Of a stretch of 64,000 nucleotides of DNA, positions 4,145-61,715 are shown piece by piece (position 1 is the stretch's first letter; the number at the start of each line of letters is the position of its first letter). The position numbers and the translations under genes were made by a program. Under the pieces are notes generated by a model. It was given only the letters and a program-made list of their open reading frames with translations, was not told where the DNA came from and did no database searches. Source of the stretch: Granulicella tundricola MP5ACTX9 (lineage in GTDB: Bacteria > Acidobacteriota > Terriglobia > Terriglobales > Acidobacteriaceae); the NCBI RefSeq assembly GCF_000178975.2, contig NC_015064.1, positions 1,364,001 through 1,428,000 on the forward strand. Direction: 5' to 3'.

Positions 4145-4173
4145 GGGATCGTTTGCCTGCGGCAAACGATCCC
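4145..4173 (-). terminator. Perfect 13-bp hairpin between metG and the membrane-protein gene
   Basis: GGGATCGTTTGCC, loop TGC, GGCAAACGATCCC, 12 nt after the metG stop in the direction of transcription. There is no T-tract on either side, so it may be a mRNA-stabilising or attenuating hairpin and not a true intrinsic terminator. Confidence 0.5.
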
Positions 4174-4184
4174 GGGGTGTTGCG

Positions 4185-6731
4185 CTATTTGAGGCGGGAG
4201 CCCAGGGGCAGGTCATCCGCTCCGGCGAAGGTGGCTAGATGCGGCTTGCCGCCTTCTGTGCTGGCTGCCAGGAGCATGCCGTGGGATTCGAGGCCGCGCA
4301 TCTTGCGAGGGGCCAGGTTGGTGATGACGACGATGCGGCGGCCGATGAGGTCTTCCGGGGTGTACCACTCGGCTATGCCGGAGAGGATCTGGCGCTTTTC
4401 GTAGCCGAGATCGACTTCGAGGCGGAGGAGCTTGTCGGCTTTGGGGATGCGCTCGCAGACGAGGATCTGGGCTACGCGGAGTTCGATCTTGGCGAAGTCG
4501 TCGATGGTGATCTGGGGGGAGGCATCGGCTGGTCCGGCAGCAGGGGTAGACCCACTCATTCCGGGATTAGACTCCGGCATGAATGGGGCACTGAAGATTC
4601 CGGAGGCGGCTTCTGCGTGAGGTGGGGTGCCGGGGCGCTCGGTGGAGTGGGCGTTGGAGCCGGCTACGGTGGTGGCTTCTCCGAAGGCGCGGGGCGGGGC
4701 TCCGGGGTGGGTTGGGTCTTGTGGGGTTTCAGGGGAGGCGTTGAACTTTTCGTCTACAAGCTTAGAGACGGGGGCGTTGGAGACGGGGGCTTTGGATTTT
4801 TCTTGTTCCATATCGCTCATGGTTTGGGCTAGTCCTTTGTCGGCTCTTGGGAAGATGGGGGAGAGTGGGCCTAGTTTGGTGCCGGGTTGGAGGCCTCCCC
4901 AGGTGAGATTCTTTAGTTCGCCGTTTGCTGCGGCTAGTTCTATGTCTCCCAAGCCTAGTTGGTGCCAGACTTTGGCTGTGGCGTAGGGGAGAATGGGGTG
5001 GAGGAGGGCGGTGATGATGCGGATGGATTCTGCGGCGGTGTAGAGGACACTCGCTCGTTTCTCCTGCATCTCGTCGTCGCTAAGTCCGACGATGACCTTC
5101 CACGGGGCTTTGGAAGTTAGATCCGAATCAAGCAAGCGGATGAGTTCACTACAAGCTTCCAATGCTTTATTGAAACGGAGTAGCTGTGTGTTTCTTCCGA
5201 CTGCAAGTGAAAGAGCAACAGCCTCACTTGGAAGCCTAGTGACCCAGGTTCCGCTCGAATTATCGTTAACAAACCGATCAAAGAGTTGGGATTCTTTGAC
5301 AGATGACTCTAAGACTACTGAGTTGGAAGAGACCCATGATGGCGGAACTACACCGTCGAAGTACTTATGGATCATGTTCAGCGTGCGGCTGACGAGGTTG
5401 CCGTAGCCGTTGGCGAGGTCTGCGTTGTAGCGGGTGATGAGGGCCTCGAAGGTGAAGCTGCCGTCCTGGCCGAAGGGGATTTCGCGGAGGAGGAAGTAGC
5501 GGAGGACGTCGGCGGCGAAGAGGTCCTGGTCCTGTTTGGTGGGTTCGGGGGGCGGGGTGGGAGAGCCCGGGGCTAAAGCCCCTTCGTTTTCCGTTCCGTT
5601 GACGGGGGGCTGAAGCCCCCCTCTAATCCCAAGGGCCAATGCGTCCGAGGTTAGTGCGGCGGGGGGGGGCAGGAGGGTGCCGAAGGCGTCGAGGATGGTT
5701 TCGGTGCGGACTATGTTGCCCTTGGATTTGCTCATCTTCGAGTCGTCGAAGAGGAGCCAGCCGTGGGCGGTGACGGCTTTGGGGAGGTCGAGGCCGGCGG
5801 CGAGGAGGAAGGCGGGCCAGTAGACGCAGTGGAAACGGATGATCTCTTTGCCTACGAGATGGATGTCGGCGGGCCAGAATTTTTCGAACTGGGTGGTGTC
5901 GTCGGAGCCGTAGCCGAGGGCGGTGATGTAGTTGGCGAGGGCATCGAGCCAGACGTAGATGACGTGCTTTTCTTTGGCTTCGGAGGCGGCGGGCTCGGGG
6001 ACAGGGATGCCCCAGGTGAAGCTGCTGCGGGAGACGGAGAGGTCTTTCAGGGCTCCGGGGAGGTAGAGGATTCCCTTGGCGGACTGTTTGAGATCCGTGG
6101 AAACCCAGGTCCCAGAATCGGGACCTGGGGCACCCGATGTATTGCCTCTCAGGAAGCTGAGGACTTCGTTTTTACGGGCTTCTGGGGTGATTTTTAGGGT
6201 GTCGGACTCGATGAGGTTGAGGAGGGGGAGCTGGTAGTCGCTGAGGCGGAAGAAGAAGTTTTCTTCGGTGACGGTTTCGGTGGGTTTGCCGTCGGGGCCT
6301 ATGGTGCCGGGAGGGCCTTCTACGAACATCTCTTCGCCGATGCTGTACTGGCCGGTGTAGGTACTGAGGTAGATCTGGCCCTTGGCGTGGAGGTCTGCGA
6401 AGAGCTTCTGAACTCCCTTTTTGTGGGCTTCGTCCGTGGTGCGGATGTACTGGTCGTTGGTGATGCCCATGCGCTTCCAGAGGTCGCGGAAGGAGGCGCT
6501 TACCTGGTCCGTAAAGGTCTGCGGCGGAATACCCGCCGCAAGTGCTGAGCGCTCGATTTTTTGGCCGTGCTCGTCTGTGCCGGTGAGGAACCAGGTGGGG
6601 GTGCCCTGGGCTCGTGCGCGGCGTGCGAGGACGTCGGCGACGATGGTGGTGTAGGCGTGGCCGATGTGGGGGCGGGCGTTGACGTAATAGATGGGGGTGG
6701 TGACGTAGAAGCTACAGGATGGGTCTGGCAT
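4185..6731 (-). CDS. metG: Methionyl-tRNA synthetase with C-terminal tRNA-binding domain
   Basis: Charges tRNA-Met with methionine. The catalytic Rossmann domain begins FYVTTPIYYVNARPHIGHAY, with HIGH at about residues 22-25, and the KMSKSKGN loop is at about 331-338. The anticodon-binding helical domain follows. An EMAPII/Arc1p-like tRNA-binding domain (IDDFAKIELRVAQ to the end) occupies about 739-848. At 848 residues it is much longer than the usual 640-680. Part of the excess consists of palindromic DNA repeats translated in frame: one at about residues 199-210, one at about 367-388 after KMSKS, and a degenerate one at about 714-727 in the linker to the tRNA-binding domain. All core motifs are intact, so the enzyme is very probably active. 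TAAACT lies 12 nt before the ATG on the coding strand. Confidence 0.96.
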   Translation of the reverse strand: MPDPSCSFYVTTPIYYVNARPHIGHAYTTIVADVLARRARAQGTPTWFLTGTDEHGQKIERSALAAGIPPQTFTDQVSASFRDLWKRMGITNDQYIRTTDEAHKKGVQKLFADLHAKGQIYLSTYTGQYSIGEEMFVEGPPGTIGPDGKPTETVTEENFFFRLSDYQLPLLNLIESDTLKITPEARKNEVLSFLRGNTSGAPGPDSGTWVSTDLKQSAKGILYLPGALKDLSVSRSSFTWGIPVPEPAASEAKEKHVIYVWLDALANYITALGYGSDDTTQFEKFWPADIHLVGKEIIRFHCVYWPAFLLAAGLDLPKAVTAHGWLLFDDSKMSKSKGNIVRTETILDAFGTLLPPPAALTSDALALGIRGGLQPPVNGTENEGALAPGSPTPPPEPTKQDQDLFAADVLRYFLLREIPFGQDGSFTFEALITRYNADLANGYGNLVSRTLNMIHKYFDGVVPPSWVSSNSVVLESSVKESQLFDRFVNDNSSGTWVTRLPSEAVALSLAVGRNTQLLRFNKALEACSELIRLLDSDLTSKAPWKVIVGLSDDEMQEKRASVLYTAAESIRIITALLHPILPYATAKVWHQLGLGDIELAAANGELKNLTWGGLQPGTKLGPLSPIFPRADKGLAQTMSDMEQEKSKAPVSNAPVSKLVDEKFNASPETPQDPTHPGAPPRAFGEATTVAGSNAHSTERPGTPPHAEAASGIFSAPFMPESNPGMSGSTPAAGPADASPQITIDDFAKIELRVAQILVCERIPKADKLLRLEVDLGYEKRQILSGIAEWYTPEDLIGRRIVVITNLAPRKMRGLESHGMLLAASTEGGKPHLATFAGADDLPLGSRLK
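4551..4588. repeat. Family-B palindromic repeat (degenerate) inside metG
   Basis: Arms CCCACTCATTCCGG and CCGGCATGAATGGGG pair with two mismatches. The outer frame ACCCA...TGGGGCAC matches the copies at 6101 and 61626. In metG it encodes a Pro/Gly/Ser-rich piece (FMPESNPGMSGS) of the linker before the tRNA-binding domain. Confidence 0.55.
5566..5629. repeat. Family-A double-hairpin repeat, in frame inside metG
   Basis: Two hairpins, GGGGCTAAAGCCCC (5569-5582) and GGGGGGCTGAAGCCCCCC (5604-5621), separated by about 20 bp and followed by CTCTAATCC. The same layout occurs between genes at 6929-6994 and 42998-43063. On the minus strand it reads through as GIRGGLQPPVNGTENEGALA, a peptide with no counterpart in ordinary MetRS. 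Confidence 0.9.
6101..6135. repeat. Family-B palindromic repeat, in frame inside metG
   Basis: Perfect 10-bp arms CCCAGGTCCC / GGGACCTGGG with loop AGAATC, framed by GTGGAAA and GCACCC. The copy at 61626-61665 has the same frame and loop (AGAAGC) but different, compensating arm bases. It encodes GAPGPDSGTWVS within metG. Confidence 0.85.
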
Positions 6732-6928: not shown

Positions 6929-6994
6929 GGCCCGGGGCTGAAGCCCGAATCTTATTGTGTTCGCTAACGGGGGGCTGAAGCCCCCCTCTCATCC
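6929..6994. repeat. Family-A double-hairpin repeat in the metG-gntR gap
   Basis: Hairpins GGGCTGAAGCCC (6935-6946) and GGGGGGCTGAAGCCCCCC (6969-6986), followed by CTCTCATCCG and short GCAACC-type hexamers. The whole 302-bp gap 6732-7033 is made largely of repeats; I see no gene in it. Confidence 0.88.
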
Positions 6995-21985: not shown

Positions 21986-23533
21986 TCAGGCTCTGGGCCG
22001 ATCATGGGCCGCACTCGTAAATGAGGCTGCGAGGAGGATCAGGATGGGGAAGAATTCGAGCGTGTAACGGGGCTCTGAGTTGTCGATGGTGAGGAGCAGG
22101 GCGGCGCGGAGGAGGATCATGCCGGCCATGGACCAGAGGATGGGGGCGGGGATGGGCCAGTTGGGGAACAGGGTGCGGCGGCGGGTGAAGGCTGCGGCGG
22201 CGAGGGCGAAGTAGGCGAGGTTCAGGGCTCCGTAGGCGTAGGAGAAGAGGGTGCTCCTGGGGTGCAGGCGGAACTTCCACCATTCGAGCGGCAGGGGGAG
22301 GAAGTCGATGCGGGGGCGGAAGGCCATATTGATAAGGCGGGCGATGGGGAGGGCGAGGTAGAAGCGGATGGGGTTGGACCGGACGCGGGTTGCGGCGAGG
22401 GTGGCGAAGCGATCGTCGAGGGATTTGGTGGGGGTGGTGGTGAGGTTGTACTCGGCGTAGAGGGCTTCGGTGGTGGCGTACTGGGTGTTGTTGTCGAAGG
22501 CGCGGTTGGGGAGGTCGGCGATCTGGAGGGTGTCGCTGCCGAGGTTCCAGTAGGTGGTTTCGGTGGAGGCGAAGTCGATGGCCCAAGTGCGGTACCAGCG
22601 CTGGAAGCCGAGGGTGATGAGTTCGCCGGGGTCAGTGGCGAAGCGGGGGGCGAGTGGCTCGAAGACGTGGAAGGTGCGCTCGTTGCGGATGGTCCAGGGG
22701 ATGAGGGGGAGGATGGTGAGGAGGGAGGCTATGACTGCCGGGCGCAGGGTGCGGAGGGTGAACTTGCTCGTGGGTTGAGTGCGCCAGGTGATGTAGAGGA
22801 TGGCGGGGATGATGGCGGCGGCGAGGATGCCTTGCTCCGGGCGGAGGAGGATGGAGTAGGCGAGGGTGGCGGCCAGGAGGTAGAGCCAGGGGTTAAAGGG
22901 GCGGTAAGGGCTTTGGGTCTCCGTTACCGCGTGGGGCGCTCCCGACAAAATACTGAGGTTCTGAGCTTCGCTCAGAATGACGACACCTTTTTTTATTGGA
23001 CTGAATTGACCAAAGATGTAGCTTTGCCAGCGGTGGAGGGCGTAGAAGGCGAGGGCGATGGTGAAGAGGGTGAGGGTTTCGGTGAGGGGGATGGCTACGA
23101 AGTTGGCGGTGAAGGGGCAGAGGCAGCCTAGCCACAGGGCGATGAGGCCGGCGCGACGGCTCACGAGGCGGTGTGCCAGGGCGGCGATGAGGCAGCAGGT
23201 CGCGAGGTCGATAAGGGTCTGGAGGATGAGGACGGGGAGATAGTGGTCGTAACCGAAGACGAGGAAGCAGAGGGCGAGGAAGGCGGGGTAGCCGGGGAGG
23301 CGGATGAGAGTGGGGCGAGGTGGGGCGGGGTGACCGTTGAGGGTCTGGGAGAAGCCGTAGATGCCGTGCTGGAGGGTGTTGCGGGCGAAGTCGCCGTAGA
23401 GGAGGGTGTCGTTGGCGACCTGGGCGAAGCGATGGATGAACCAGAGACGGAGGAGCAGGCCGGCGAGGAGGGCGGCGATGGTTAGGAGGAGATAGCGGCG
23501 TTTTGTGCCGTCGGTTGCGTCCGAGGTGGTCAT
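21986..23533 (-). CDS. Polytopic membrane protein, ArnT/PMT-like (GT-C) glycosyltransferase
   Basis: About 515 residues with 10 or more hydrophobic segments. The first periplasmic loop carries NDTLLYGDFARNTLQHGIYG, the Asp-containing motif expected after TM1 in dolichyl/undecaprenyl-phosphate-sugar glycosyltransferases, and later RLPGYPAFLAL, a text common in the ArnT-like family. The acceptor is unknown. An in-frame family-C palindromic repeat (22949-22982) adds the peptide VVILSEAQNLSIL at about residues 184-195, after the FGQFSPIKKG stretch. I start at ATG 23533 (MTTSDATDG); TATGAT ends 9 nt upstream of it. The gene is divergent from the GH18/CE4/GT2 fusion. Confidence 0.72.
   Translation of the reverse strand: MTTSDATDGTKRRYLLLTIAALLAGLLLRLWFIHRFAQVANDTLLYGDFARNTLQHGIYGFSQTLNGHPAPPRPTLIRLPGYPAFLALCFLVFGYDHYLPVLILQTLIDLATCCLIAALAHRLVSRRAGLIALWLGCLCPFTANFVAIPLTETLTLFTIALAFYALHRWQSYIFGQFSPIKKGVVILSEAQNLSILSGAPHAVTETQSPYRPFNPWLYLLAATLAYSILLRPEQGILAAAIIPAILYITWRTQPTSKFTLRTLRPAVIASLLTILPLIPWTIRNERTFHVFEPLAPRFATDPGELITLGFQRWYRTWAIDFASTETTYWNLGSDTLQIADLPNRAFDNNTQYATTEALYAEYNLTTTPTKSLDDRFATLAATRVRSNPIRFYLALPIARLINMAFRPRIDFLPLPLEWWKFRLHPRSTLFSYAYGALNLAYFALAAAAFTRRRTLFPNWPIPAPILWSMAGMILLRAALLLTIDNSEPRYTLEFFPILILLAASFTSAAHDRPRA
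22949..22982. repeat. Family-C hairpin repeat, in frame inside a glycosyltransferase gene
   Basis: Core TTCTGAGCTTCGCTCAGAA (22959-22977) followed by TGACG, preceded by AATACTGAGG. It is nearly identical to the intergenic copy at 28998-29030. Read on the minus strand it encodes VVILSEAQNLSIL. Confidence 0.88.
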
Positions 23534-28970: not shown

Positions 28971-29030
28971 ACAAGCAACTTCAAAAGCCAAGGCCAATAC
29001 GGAGGTTCTGAGCTTCGCTCAGAATGACGG
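28971..29030. repeat. Composite repeat: GCAAC-like hexamers plus family-C hairpin
   Basis: ACAAGCAACTTCAAAAGCC is followed by CCAATACGGAGGTTCTGAG and the rest of the TTCTGAG-CTTCG-CTCAGAA hairpin (29006-29024). The same order, hexamer-like DNA then CAATACGG then hairpin then TGACG, occurs at 55036-55118. It occupies most of the gap between two convergent genes and may also terminate transcription. Confidence 0.8.
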
Positions 29031-42997: not shown

Positions 42998-43063
42998 GCC
43001 CGGGGCTGAAGCCCCGCATGTTTGTGGCTTGTTGACGGGGGGCTGAAGCCCCCCTCTAATCCG
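42998..43063. repeat. Family-A double-hairpin repeat in the pyrD-tex gap
   Basis: Hairpins GGGGCTGAAGCCCC (43002-43015) and GGGGGGCTGAAGCCCCCC (43037-43054), followed by CTCTAATCCG. It is preceded by a GCAACGGC hexamer-like piece and followed at once by the hexamer array. Confidence 0.9.
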
Positions 43064-43214
43064 AACCGCAACCGCAACCGCAACCGCAACTGCAACCGCA
43101 GCGGCAACCGCATCGGCAACTGCAACCGCAACTGCAACCGCAACCGCAGCGGCAACGGCAACCGCAGCGGCAACGGCAACGGCAACCGCAACCGCAACCG
43201 CAACCGCAACCGCA
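43064..43214. repeat. Array of about 25 GCAACC-type hexamers
   Basis: An almost uninterrupted run of 6-bp units of the form GCAAC(C/T/G), with scattered GCAGCG variants. Because the unit is a multiple of three, both strands stay open (Asn-Arg repeats one way, Arg-Leu the other), but no start or Shine-Dalgarno supports a gene. Likely to vary in copy number. It lies between family-A and family-C repeats. Confidence 0.9.
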
Positions 43215-61625: not shown

Positions 61626-61665
61626 GTGGAACCCATGTCTCAGAAGCGAGACATGGGGCACCCAG
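61626..61665. repeat. Family-B palindromic repeat, intergenic copy
   Basis: Perfect 10-bp arms CCCATGTCTC / GAGACATGGG with loop AGAAGC, framed by GTGGAA and GCACCC. It matches the frame of the copy inside metG at 6101, with compensating changes in the arms. Confidence 0.88.
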
Positions 61666-61677
61666 TATCTGGGAATG

Positions 61678-61715
61678 AAAAAGCCCCGGCTACCTTTTGG
61701 GCGGCCGGGGCTTTT
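61678..61715. terminator. Bidirectional intrinsic terminator
   Basis: Stem AAAAGCCCCGGC / GCCGGGGCTTTT with a 13-nt loop, A-rich on one side and TTTT on the other. It separates the convergent sulfatase and TonB-receptor genes. Confidence 0.92.

Follow-up and report, generated by a model that had tools for sequence, protein, structure and literature searches.

Palindromic repeats in the reading frame of metG of Granulicella tundricola, probably spread with Y1 transposases

How do three palindromic repeats come to lie in the reading frame of a methionyl-tRNA synthetase (MetRS) gene without interrupting it? The gene, metG, is located in a 64,000-nucleotide (nt) stretch of the Granulicella tundricola MP5ACTX9 genome (contig NC_015064.1, positions 1,364,001 to 1,428,000; hereafter the window), where it forms an uninterrupted 848-amino acid (aa) frame that matches NCBIfam PRK12267 with 709 bits (cut-off 598). 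An earlier note on this DNA had described the three elements, had placed them between conserved MetRS motifs and had listed further copies of the same families outside genes; we found the elements again, within refined limits, and confirmed the open frame, the positions between motifs and all three outside copies (Table 1). We consider it highly probable that the metG elements are repeats of the repetitive extragenic palindromic (REP) type that have spread in the genus with Y1 transposases (of the HUH class and similar to REP-associated tyrosine transposases, or RAYTs) and that are tolerated in frame as probably neutral loops.

The first of the elements is at a position that we call site 1 of MetRS, between VLSFLRG and the ALKDLSVSR region, and is a family-B repeat that codes GAPGPDSGTWV (residues ~199-210). 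Site 2, which follows KMSKS..TILDAFG, contains a family-A unit whose two hairpins (GGGGCTAAAGCCCC at 5569-5582 and GGGGGGCTGAAGCCCCCC at 5604-5621) are in direct orientation (GGGGCTAAAG / GGGGCTGAAG); this unit, CTCTAATCC tail included, agrees with the family-A copies found elsewhere in the genome and codes GGLQPPVNGTENEGALAPG (residues ~368-389). The third element, in the linker before the tRNA-binding domain, is a decayed family-B repeat that codes SAPFMPESNPGMSGST (residues ~713-727). It is identical at 35 of 42 positions to the family-B subtype of a related genome, while the next-best place on the same window strand reaches 24 and the maximum in 20 mononucleotide shuffles (for which a one-letter variant of the reference was used) is 27. 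Reversed metG sequences, used as a control, gave 0 REP motif matches.

Table 1. metG, its three in-frame repeats and the repeat copies outside genes (window positions)
Feature	Position	Strand	Basis
metG, methionyl-tRNA synthetase with C-terminal tRNA-binding domain, 848 aa	4185..6731	-	open frame; NCBIfam match; solved-structure alignment
Degenerate family-B REP, 42-nt subtype, linker to tRNA-binding domain	4551..4592		identity to relative's copy
Family-A REP, complete two-hairpin composite unit	5565..5629		pattern + copy alignment
Family-B REP, 31-nt form, 10-bp perfect stem, 6-nt loop	6103..6135		hairpin scan + pattern
Family-A unit, intergenic, upstream of metG, first hairpin imperfect	6929..6992		pattern
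Family-A unit, intergenic, then imperfect CAACCG/CAACGG hexanucleotide runs	42998..43062		pattern
Family-B 31-nt element, intergenic	61626..61664		pattern

MetRS proteins from the genus (53, including that of the window and excluding the cut sequences L084 and L085) were aligned with 15 outgroup MetRS from other families of the same class. At site 1 the window protein has 31 aa and the genus median is 25 (1-124), compared with a single residue in 15/15 outgroup proteins; the corresponding lengths at site 2 are 51, 23 (11-91) and 0-5. Judged from these sequences, both sites are extensions specific to the genus, with REPs filling part of each, and since site 1 lies inside a lineage-specific extension, the REP there is only a part of that insert. 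The linker measures 97 aa in the window protein, 85 (36-132) in the genus and 38 (18-81) in the outgroup. The proposal that the three peptides have no counterpart at orthologous sites thus stands for sites 1 and 2, both against the outgroup and against a solved MetRS (7wpi), in which window residues 192-226 and 351-403 are matched by a few residues at most, while the linker, being variable in all groups, allows no verdict on a counterpart outside the genus. When ClpB, GlmS, MutS and AlaRS are aligned with solved structures, their REP peptides likewise fall opposite gaps or in stretches left unaligned. In an AlphaFold2 model of MetRS, itself of moderate quality (33 sequences; mean predicted local distance difference test score, or pLDDT, of 72), pLDDT is below 50 at residues 204-211, 361-389 and 651-748, and all three REP segments fall within these stretches; the KMSKS loop (327-338) also has low pLDDT. 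As modelled, the three metG segments have the very low predicted confidence that is typical of disordered loops.

The same sites contain repeats in other members of the genus. At least five repeat types were found in their MetRS inserts, A, B, C (GTCATCCTGAGCGAAGCG), D (TCATCCCGACCGGAGCG) and E (ACGGCTTCAGCCGT), with up to three families in one protein (C, B and E in L061; D, A and E-type units in L083; D and A in L076), and several repeat-coded peptides recur (GAPGLDSQTWDG, VILSEAKNPRIS, VSSRPERSGVEGSAS and KGTASAVP). By an uncontrolled motif list, REP-type peptides occur in 50 of the 120 closest database MetRS, the window's own protein included (18 at site 1, 43 at site 2); lengths among these closest proteins reach 1085 aa. 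At the DNA level, every one of the 62 genus genomes has matches to pattern B (2-268 each, compared with 0-4 for the reversed pattern) and pattern C matches 48 of the 62 (control 0). Presence and absence differ between related species: of L043 and L047, with 90% MetRS core identity, the former alone carries family B at site 1, and L061 and L044 (85% core identity) have B in common, with an extra family-C element in L061 only. Species with ~90% identical MetRS cores can, in such comparisons, differ completely at sites 1 and 2. Many genus members hold non-repeat segments at these two sites, and a strict REP motif is missing from metG in 34/52 relatives. Outside the genus, the MetRS linker of L092 (G076, another family of the class) contains GTGFQPVEQPTRNTGFQPVEQ, which resembles a tandem of another repeat-coded peptide. 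In ValRS, the valS genes of G031 (L371) and G041 (L374) have insertion places with repeat-type peptides, e.g. EAVILSEAKNPEEANA; a family-C motif is present in both and a family-B motif in L374.

Insertion into genes is by no means confined to metG. A genome-wide search, suggested in the earlier note, gave 80 + 56 = 136 family-B pattern matches in G. tundricola (a place with two possible starts counting twice) and 0 + 0 for the reversed pattern. Of the 136 matches 100 were listed, and three chance-like places among these were set aside; the DNA covered contained 99 matches, which gave 93 unique palindromic copies, of which one or two may be chance (L196, L210) given a lenient palindrome threshold. 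The copies are 28-45 nt long, with the 31-nt form accounting for 70/93; the consensus is AACCCA..TGGGGCACCC(A/G)G. Genes were called with a home-made finder whose codon model was trained on the window, and 26 copies were in called genes of at least 450 nt, 1 in a small open reading frame (ORF) and 66 elsewhere; MutS2, overlooked by the finder, is one of these 66 and was added by a later check, giving 27 in-gene copies in 24 genes. Family B is therefore predominantly intergenic, with 27/93 copies in genes compared with ~90% expected for random, unselected insertion on the basis of the window's coding share (26/92 without the ValRS copy, L219, which came from the stretch taken for its gene and not from the match list). 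Among 34 exact family-A hairpins in the genome, the only one in a gene of at least 450 nt is that in metG, 5 are in small ORFs and 28 are elsewhere.

The 24 host genes, some of whose names we take from their Pfam or NCBIfam families, include those for MetRS, AlaRS, ValRS, GlmS, NadE, MutS, MutS2, ClpB and ScpB. The others encode an AmiC-like amidase, a Dpp5-like S9 peptidase and a P-type ATPase (two copies each), two Lhr-type helicases (two copies in one), an RsmE-type RNA methyltransferase, a DPRP-type photolyase, a LarC-type Ni_insertion protein, an aminotransferase, an SDR, a GH20 and a NamZ/Beta-lactamase (PF00144) protein, a PMT_2 protein, a TPR protein (L193, a doubtful case in which a 45-nt form lies close to the start codon) and one protein without an NCBIfam name. 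In ClpB, a family-B-type peptide precedes MLKEEVDEED in both G. tundricola (L216, SHVSDARHGAP) and G021 (L389, THVPGAGHGAP), with position and reading frame in common, and is missing from 23 other aligned relatives (29 loci, 5 of them not fitting the pattern); it may represent a shared insertion or parallel insertions.

The way in which family-B copies are read within genes is not random. Positions are spread over the length of the host gene (relative positions 0.02-0.87), and 25 of the 26 called in-gene copies have the 31-nt form (Fisher p = 0.003); in longer forms stops are commoner in two frames. Five of the six family-B frames are open in at least 68/70 copies. Four frames account for all 25 of the called 31-nt copies (10, 6, 5 and 4 of them), and the other two are never used even though they are open in 68/70 and 45/70 copies (P ~0.00025, assuming uniform choice among the open frames of each copy). 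This bias fits a purging of all peptides except tolerated ones.

REP motifs also lie close to Y1 transposase genes. Y1_Tnp genes were found in 51/62 genus genomes, and there are four in G. tundricola, of which L103 lies between family-B copies, L102 between family-A-type hairpins and L104 between A/E motifs no more than 500 nt away. Over 34 Y1 genes (these four and the best 30 of the genus search), 20 have a REP motif at a distance of 500 nt or less and 13 have one on each side; among 59 control loci (clpB/valS) the counts are 4 and 0 (Fisher 6e-8 and 4e-7). Where a Y1 gene is on a short contig, as some are, its flanks could be truncated or misplaced. The association suggests RAYT-type mobilisation and falls short of proof.

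Together, these data lead us to propose the following. REP-type palindromes would multiply in the genus through the action of the RAYT-like Y1 transposases, and a copy that enters a gene would persist only if its length keeps the frame, the frame is read free of stops and a short flexible peptide can be accommodated at that point; copies that fail in any of these would be purged. MetRS would take up repeats at site 1, site 2 and the linker, with several families entering sites 1 and 2 in many species. We infer that the repeat-coded segments are translated and form loose surface loops that are probably neutral.

Several observations weigh against this account. Fourteen of the 34 Y1 genes have no scored REP motif nearby, among them L101 of G. 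tundricola, which has none of the scored motifs within 500 nt (the scored set overlooks its hairpin GGCACGCCTTCAGGCGTGCC); family C flanks a single Y1 gene (L414, on a short contig) and family D flanks none of the 34, so that neither family can be paired convincingly with a transposase. The most used family-B frame codes Trp and sometimes Cys, and therefore no simple rule of composition accounts for frame use. The best MetRS core identity to G. tundricola among the relatives compared is 74%, so no close relative was at hand by which to date the insertions of its own genome. Clean empty sites were sought for this genome in AlaRS, ClpB and close MetRS pairs and yielded neither a target site nor an exact inserted length, because the flanking loops diverge too fast. 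AlaRS residues ~392-450 (L245-L274) form a hypervariable stretch of up to ~80 aa that is unrelated between many genus species and has, by eye, no REP-type peptides; REPs therefore do not plainly explain all loop variation. Finally, the enrichment of strict REP motifs in metG is modest (18/52 loci compared with 9/56 for valS, p = 0.044, some valS loci being cut by contig ends). metG had appeared to be a unique hotspot in a first test (18/52 metG compared with 0/30 valS and 2/29 alaS loci), but that valS set consisted of the best-scoring loci, a biased draw, and 26 further valS loci brought the count to 9/56, so that claim was reduced accordingly; the alaS comparison, made with the first 29 loci by score, is biased in the same way.

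Alternatively, the inserts could have arisen from existing repeats through recombination, gene conversion or template switching, with no dedicated transposase. The adjacency of two or three families in some proteins (L076, L083) is consistent with such copying, as is the fact that neither a target duplication nor a fixed tag could be read (a GTAG or CGTC tag at a fixed position was not found in 45 intergenic and 25 in-gene 31-nt family-B copies). However, in-gene copies share no flank beyond the element itself, and the clustering of REP motifs at Y1 transposase genes points to a transposase, and we regard this alternative as unlikely. A slightly less likely one still is that the hairpins are kept in metG RNA for a function, such as pausing for co-translational folding, mRNA stability or regulation. 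The two family-B copies in metG do fold more strongly as RNA than shuffled sequences (z -3.6, and -4.5 for the degenerate element), and two of the sites would lie between structured units according to the model (site 1 behind a helix, and the linker), but the family-A unit folds no better than its shuffles (z -0.8), species whose MetRS cores are ~90% identical differ in what repeats they contain, most relatives (the 34/52 noted above) have no strict motif in metG at all, and these same repeats occupy unrelated genes at unrelated positions. That the segments are ordinary variable MetRS loops, palindromic by chance and owing nothing to mobile DNA, is scarcely credible and already contradicted for the three named elements by the exact repeat matches, the complete family-A unit with its tail, the 35/42 identity and the lack of motifs in reversed metG, even if the non-repeat segments at the same sites in many genus members and the AlaRS stretch without REP-type peptides would suit it, and other parts of the same loops may be ordinary non-mobile variation.

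The kind of element is not new, because in-frame REPs in proteins, including tRNA synthetases, have been published for other bacteria. Passages of PMC3733652 (Di Nocera et al. 2013) describe short palindromes, single or as dimers, that are mostly intergenic and associated with Y1 transposase genes, REPs wholly within ORFs in several species, many of them in DNA repair genes, and in-frame intragenic examples in uvrA, DnaE and tRNA synthetases of X. oryzae and others. The repeats of the window resemble those REP/RAYT systems in being short, high-copy, mostly intergenic, in frame within some ORFs and associated with Y1 genes. Unlike the GTAG and CGTC REPs of that paper, they have no such tag at a fixed position, and their Y1 association contrasts with the CGTC repeats, which the same passages report as not associated with transposase genes; several families also occur at common MetRS sites here, and the passages covered contain no such MetRS. 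They further identify repeats within R. conorii genes with RPE-4 and RPE-6. A distinct tyrosine transposase group is mentioned for acidobacteria, which appear in the passages covered only in connection with transposases that have long terminal inverted repeats on either side (K. versatilis, G. mallensis and others), and passages of PMC6006769 mention class-3 TnpA proteins in acidobacteria. We found no report of REPs in acidobacterial MetRS in the open-licence PubMed Central literature, which leaves out most subscription papers; to that extent the earlier statement that no such description was known is upheld, but the occurrence of in-frame REPs in tRNA synthetases elsewhere narrows it. The new points are the acidobacterial host, repeats with neither a GTAG nor a CGTC tag and the repeated insertion of multiple families into MetRS.

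The earlier note, a sound observation whose interpretation was partly right, had likened the elements to Rickettsia palindromic elements. Those elements, reportedly described by Ogata and colleagues in 2000, are said to lie in frame in many unrelated essential proteins at tolerant sites, and the likeness serves as a working analogy (27 in-frame copies in 24 unrelated protein genes, with the MetRS copies in low-confidence loops); it is incomplete in that it took account neither of the 24 genes affected nor of the Y1/RAYT association, and the elements described here differ in their acidobacterial host and their shortness (B ~11 aa, A unit ~22 aa). Rickettsia, obligate intracellular bacteria for which reduced selection is a ready excuse, provide the best-known palindromic elements within proteins; dozens of in-frame REPs in tRNA synthetases, mismatch repair proteins and ClpB of a bacterium of soil lineage with a 5.5-Mb genome would show that genome decay is unnecessary. 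The family-A composite can also be compared with REPINs, in which, according to what Bertels and Rainey are said to have described, two REP hairpins constitute one mobile unit: it too has two hairpins in one unit, in direct and not, as in REPINs, inverted orientation.

A broader possibility, which we put forward tentatively and hold to be doubtful, is that REPs are an ongoing source of new protein segments, such that REP-bearing loops attract further families and old copies decay to the hypervariable segments of MetRS, AlaRS and ValRS. In this reading the near-absence of stops in family-B frames plays a part, and, if it is true, docking beside earlier copies would be a property of the elements, beyond the effect of tolerant sites alone. 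The genus provides a natural series, with the same two MetRS sites containing no repeat, one family, or two or three, and the series lets one ask whether repeat-coded peptides gain function, whether Y1 transposases move REPs now and what share of loop evolution comes from mobile DNA. A caution for other work is that repeats shape how long MetRS and other marker proteins of this group are and how they align.

A family-A 14-mer pattern (at most 2 mismatches) has 11 matches in the window, which span both strands with some places counted twice, compared with 1.3 expected, and 0/100 shuffles reach 11. Imperfect CAACGG/CAACCG hexanucleotide runs often trail family-A units (e.g. at 43060-43200, and in the tails of many copies). 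A 13-bp perfect hairpin, GGGATCGTTTGCC (4145-4173), separates metG from the next gene, and a similar core, CGTTTGCTTCCGCAAACG, adjoins the 45-nt family-B form in L193. Soon after the family-B copy at 61632 there is a strong terminator-like hairpin, AAAAGCCCCGG..CCGGGGCTTTT (61679-61715), and two identical 19-nt hairpins, TTCTGAGCTTCGCTCAGAA, at 22959-22977 and 29006-29024, are similar to the family-C core.

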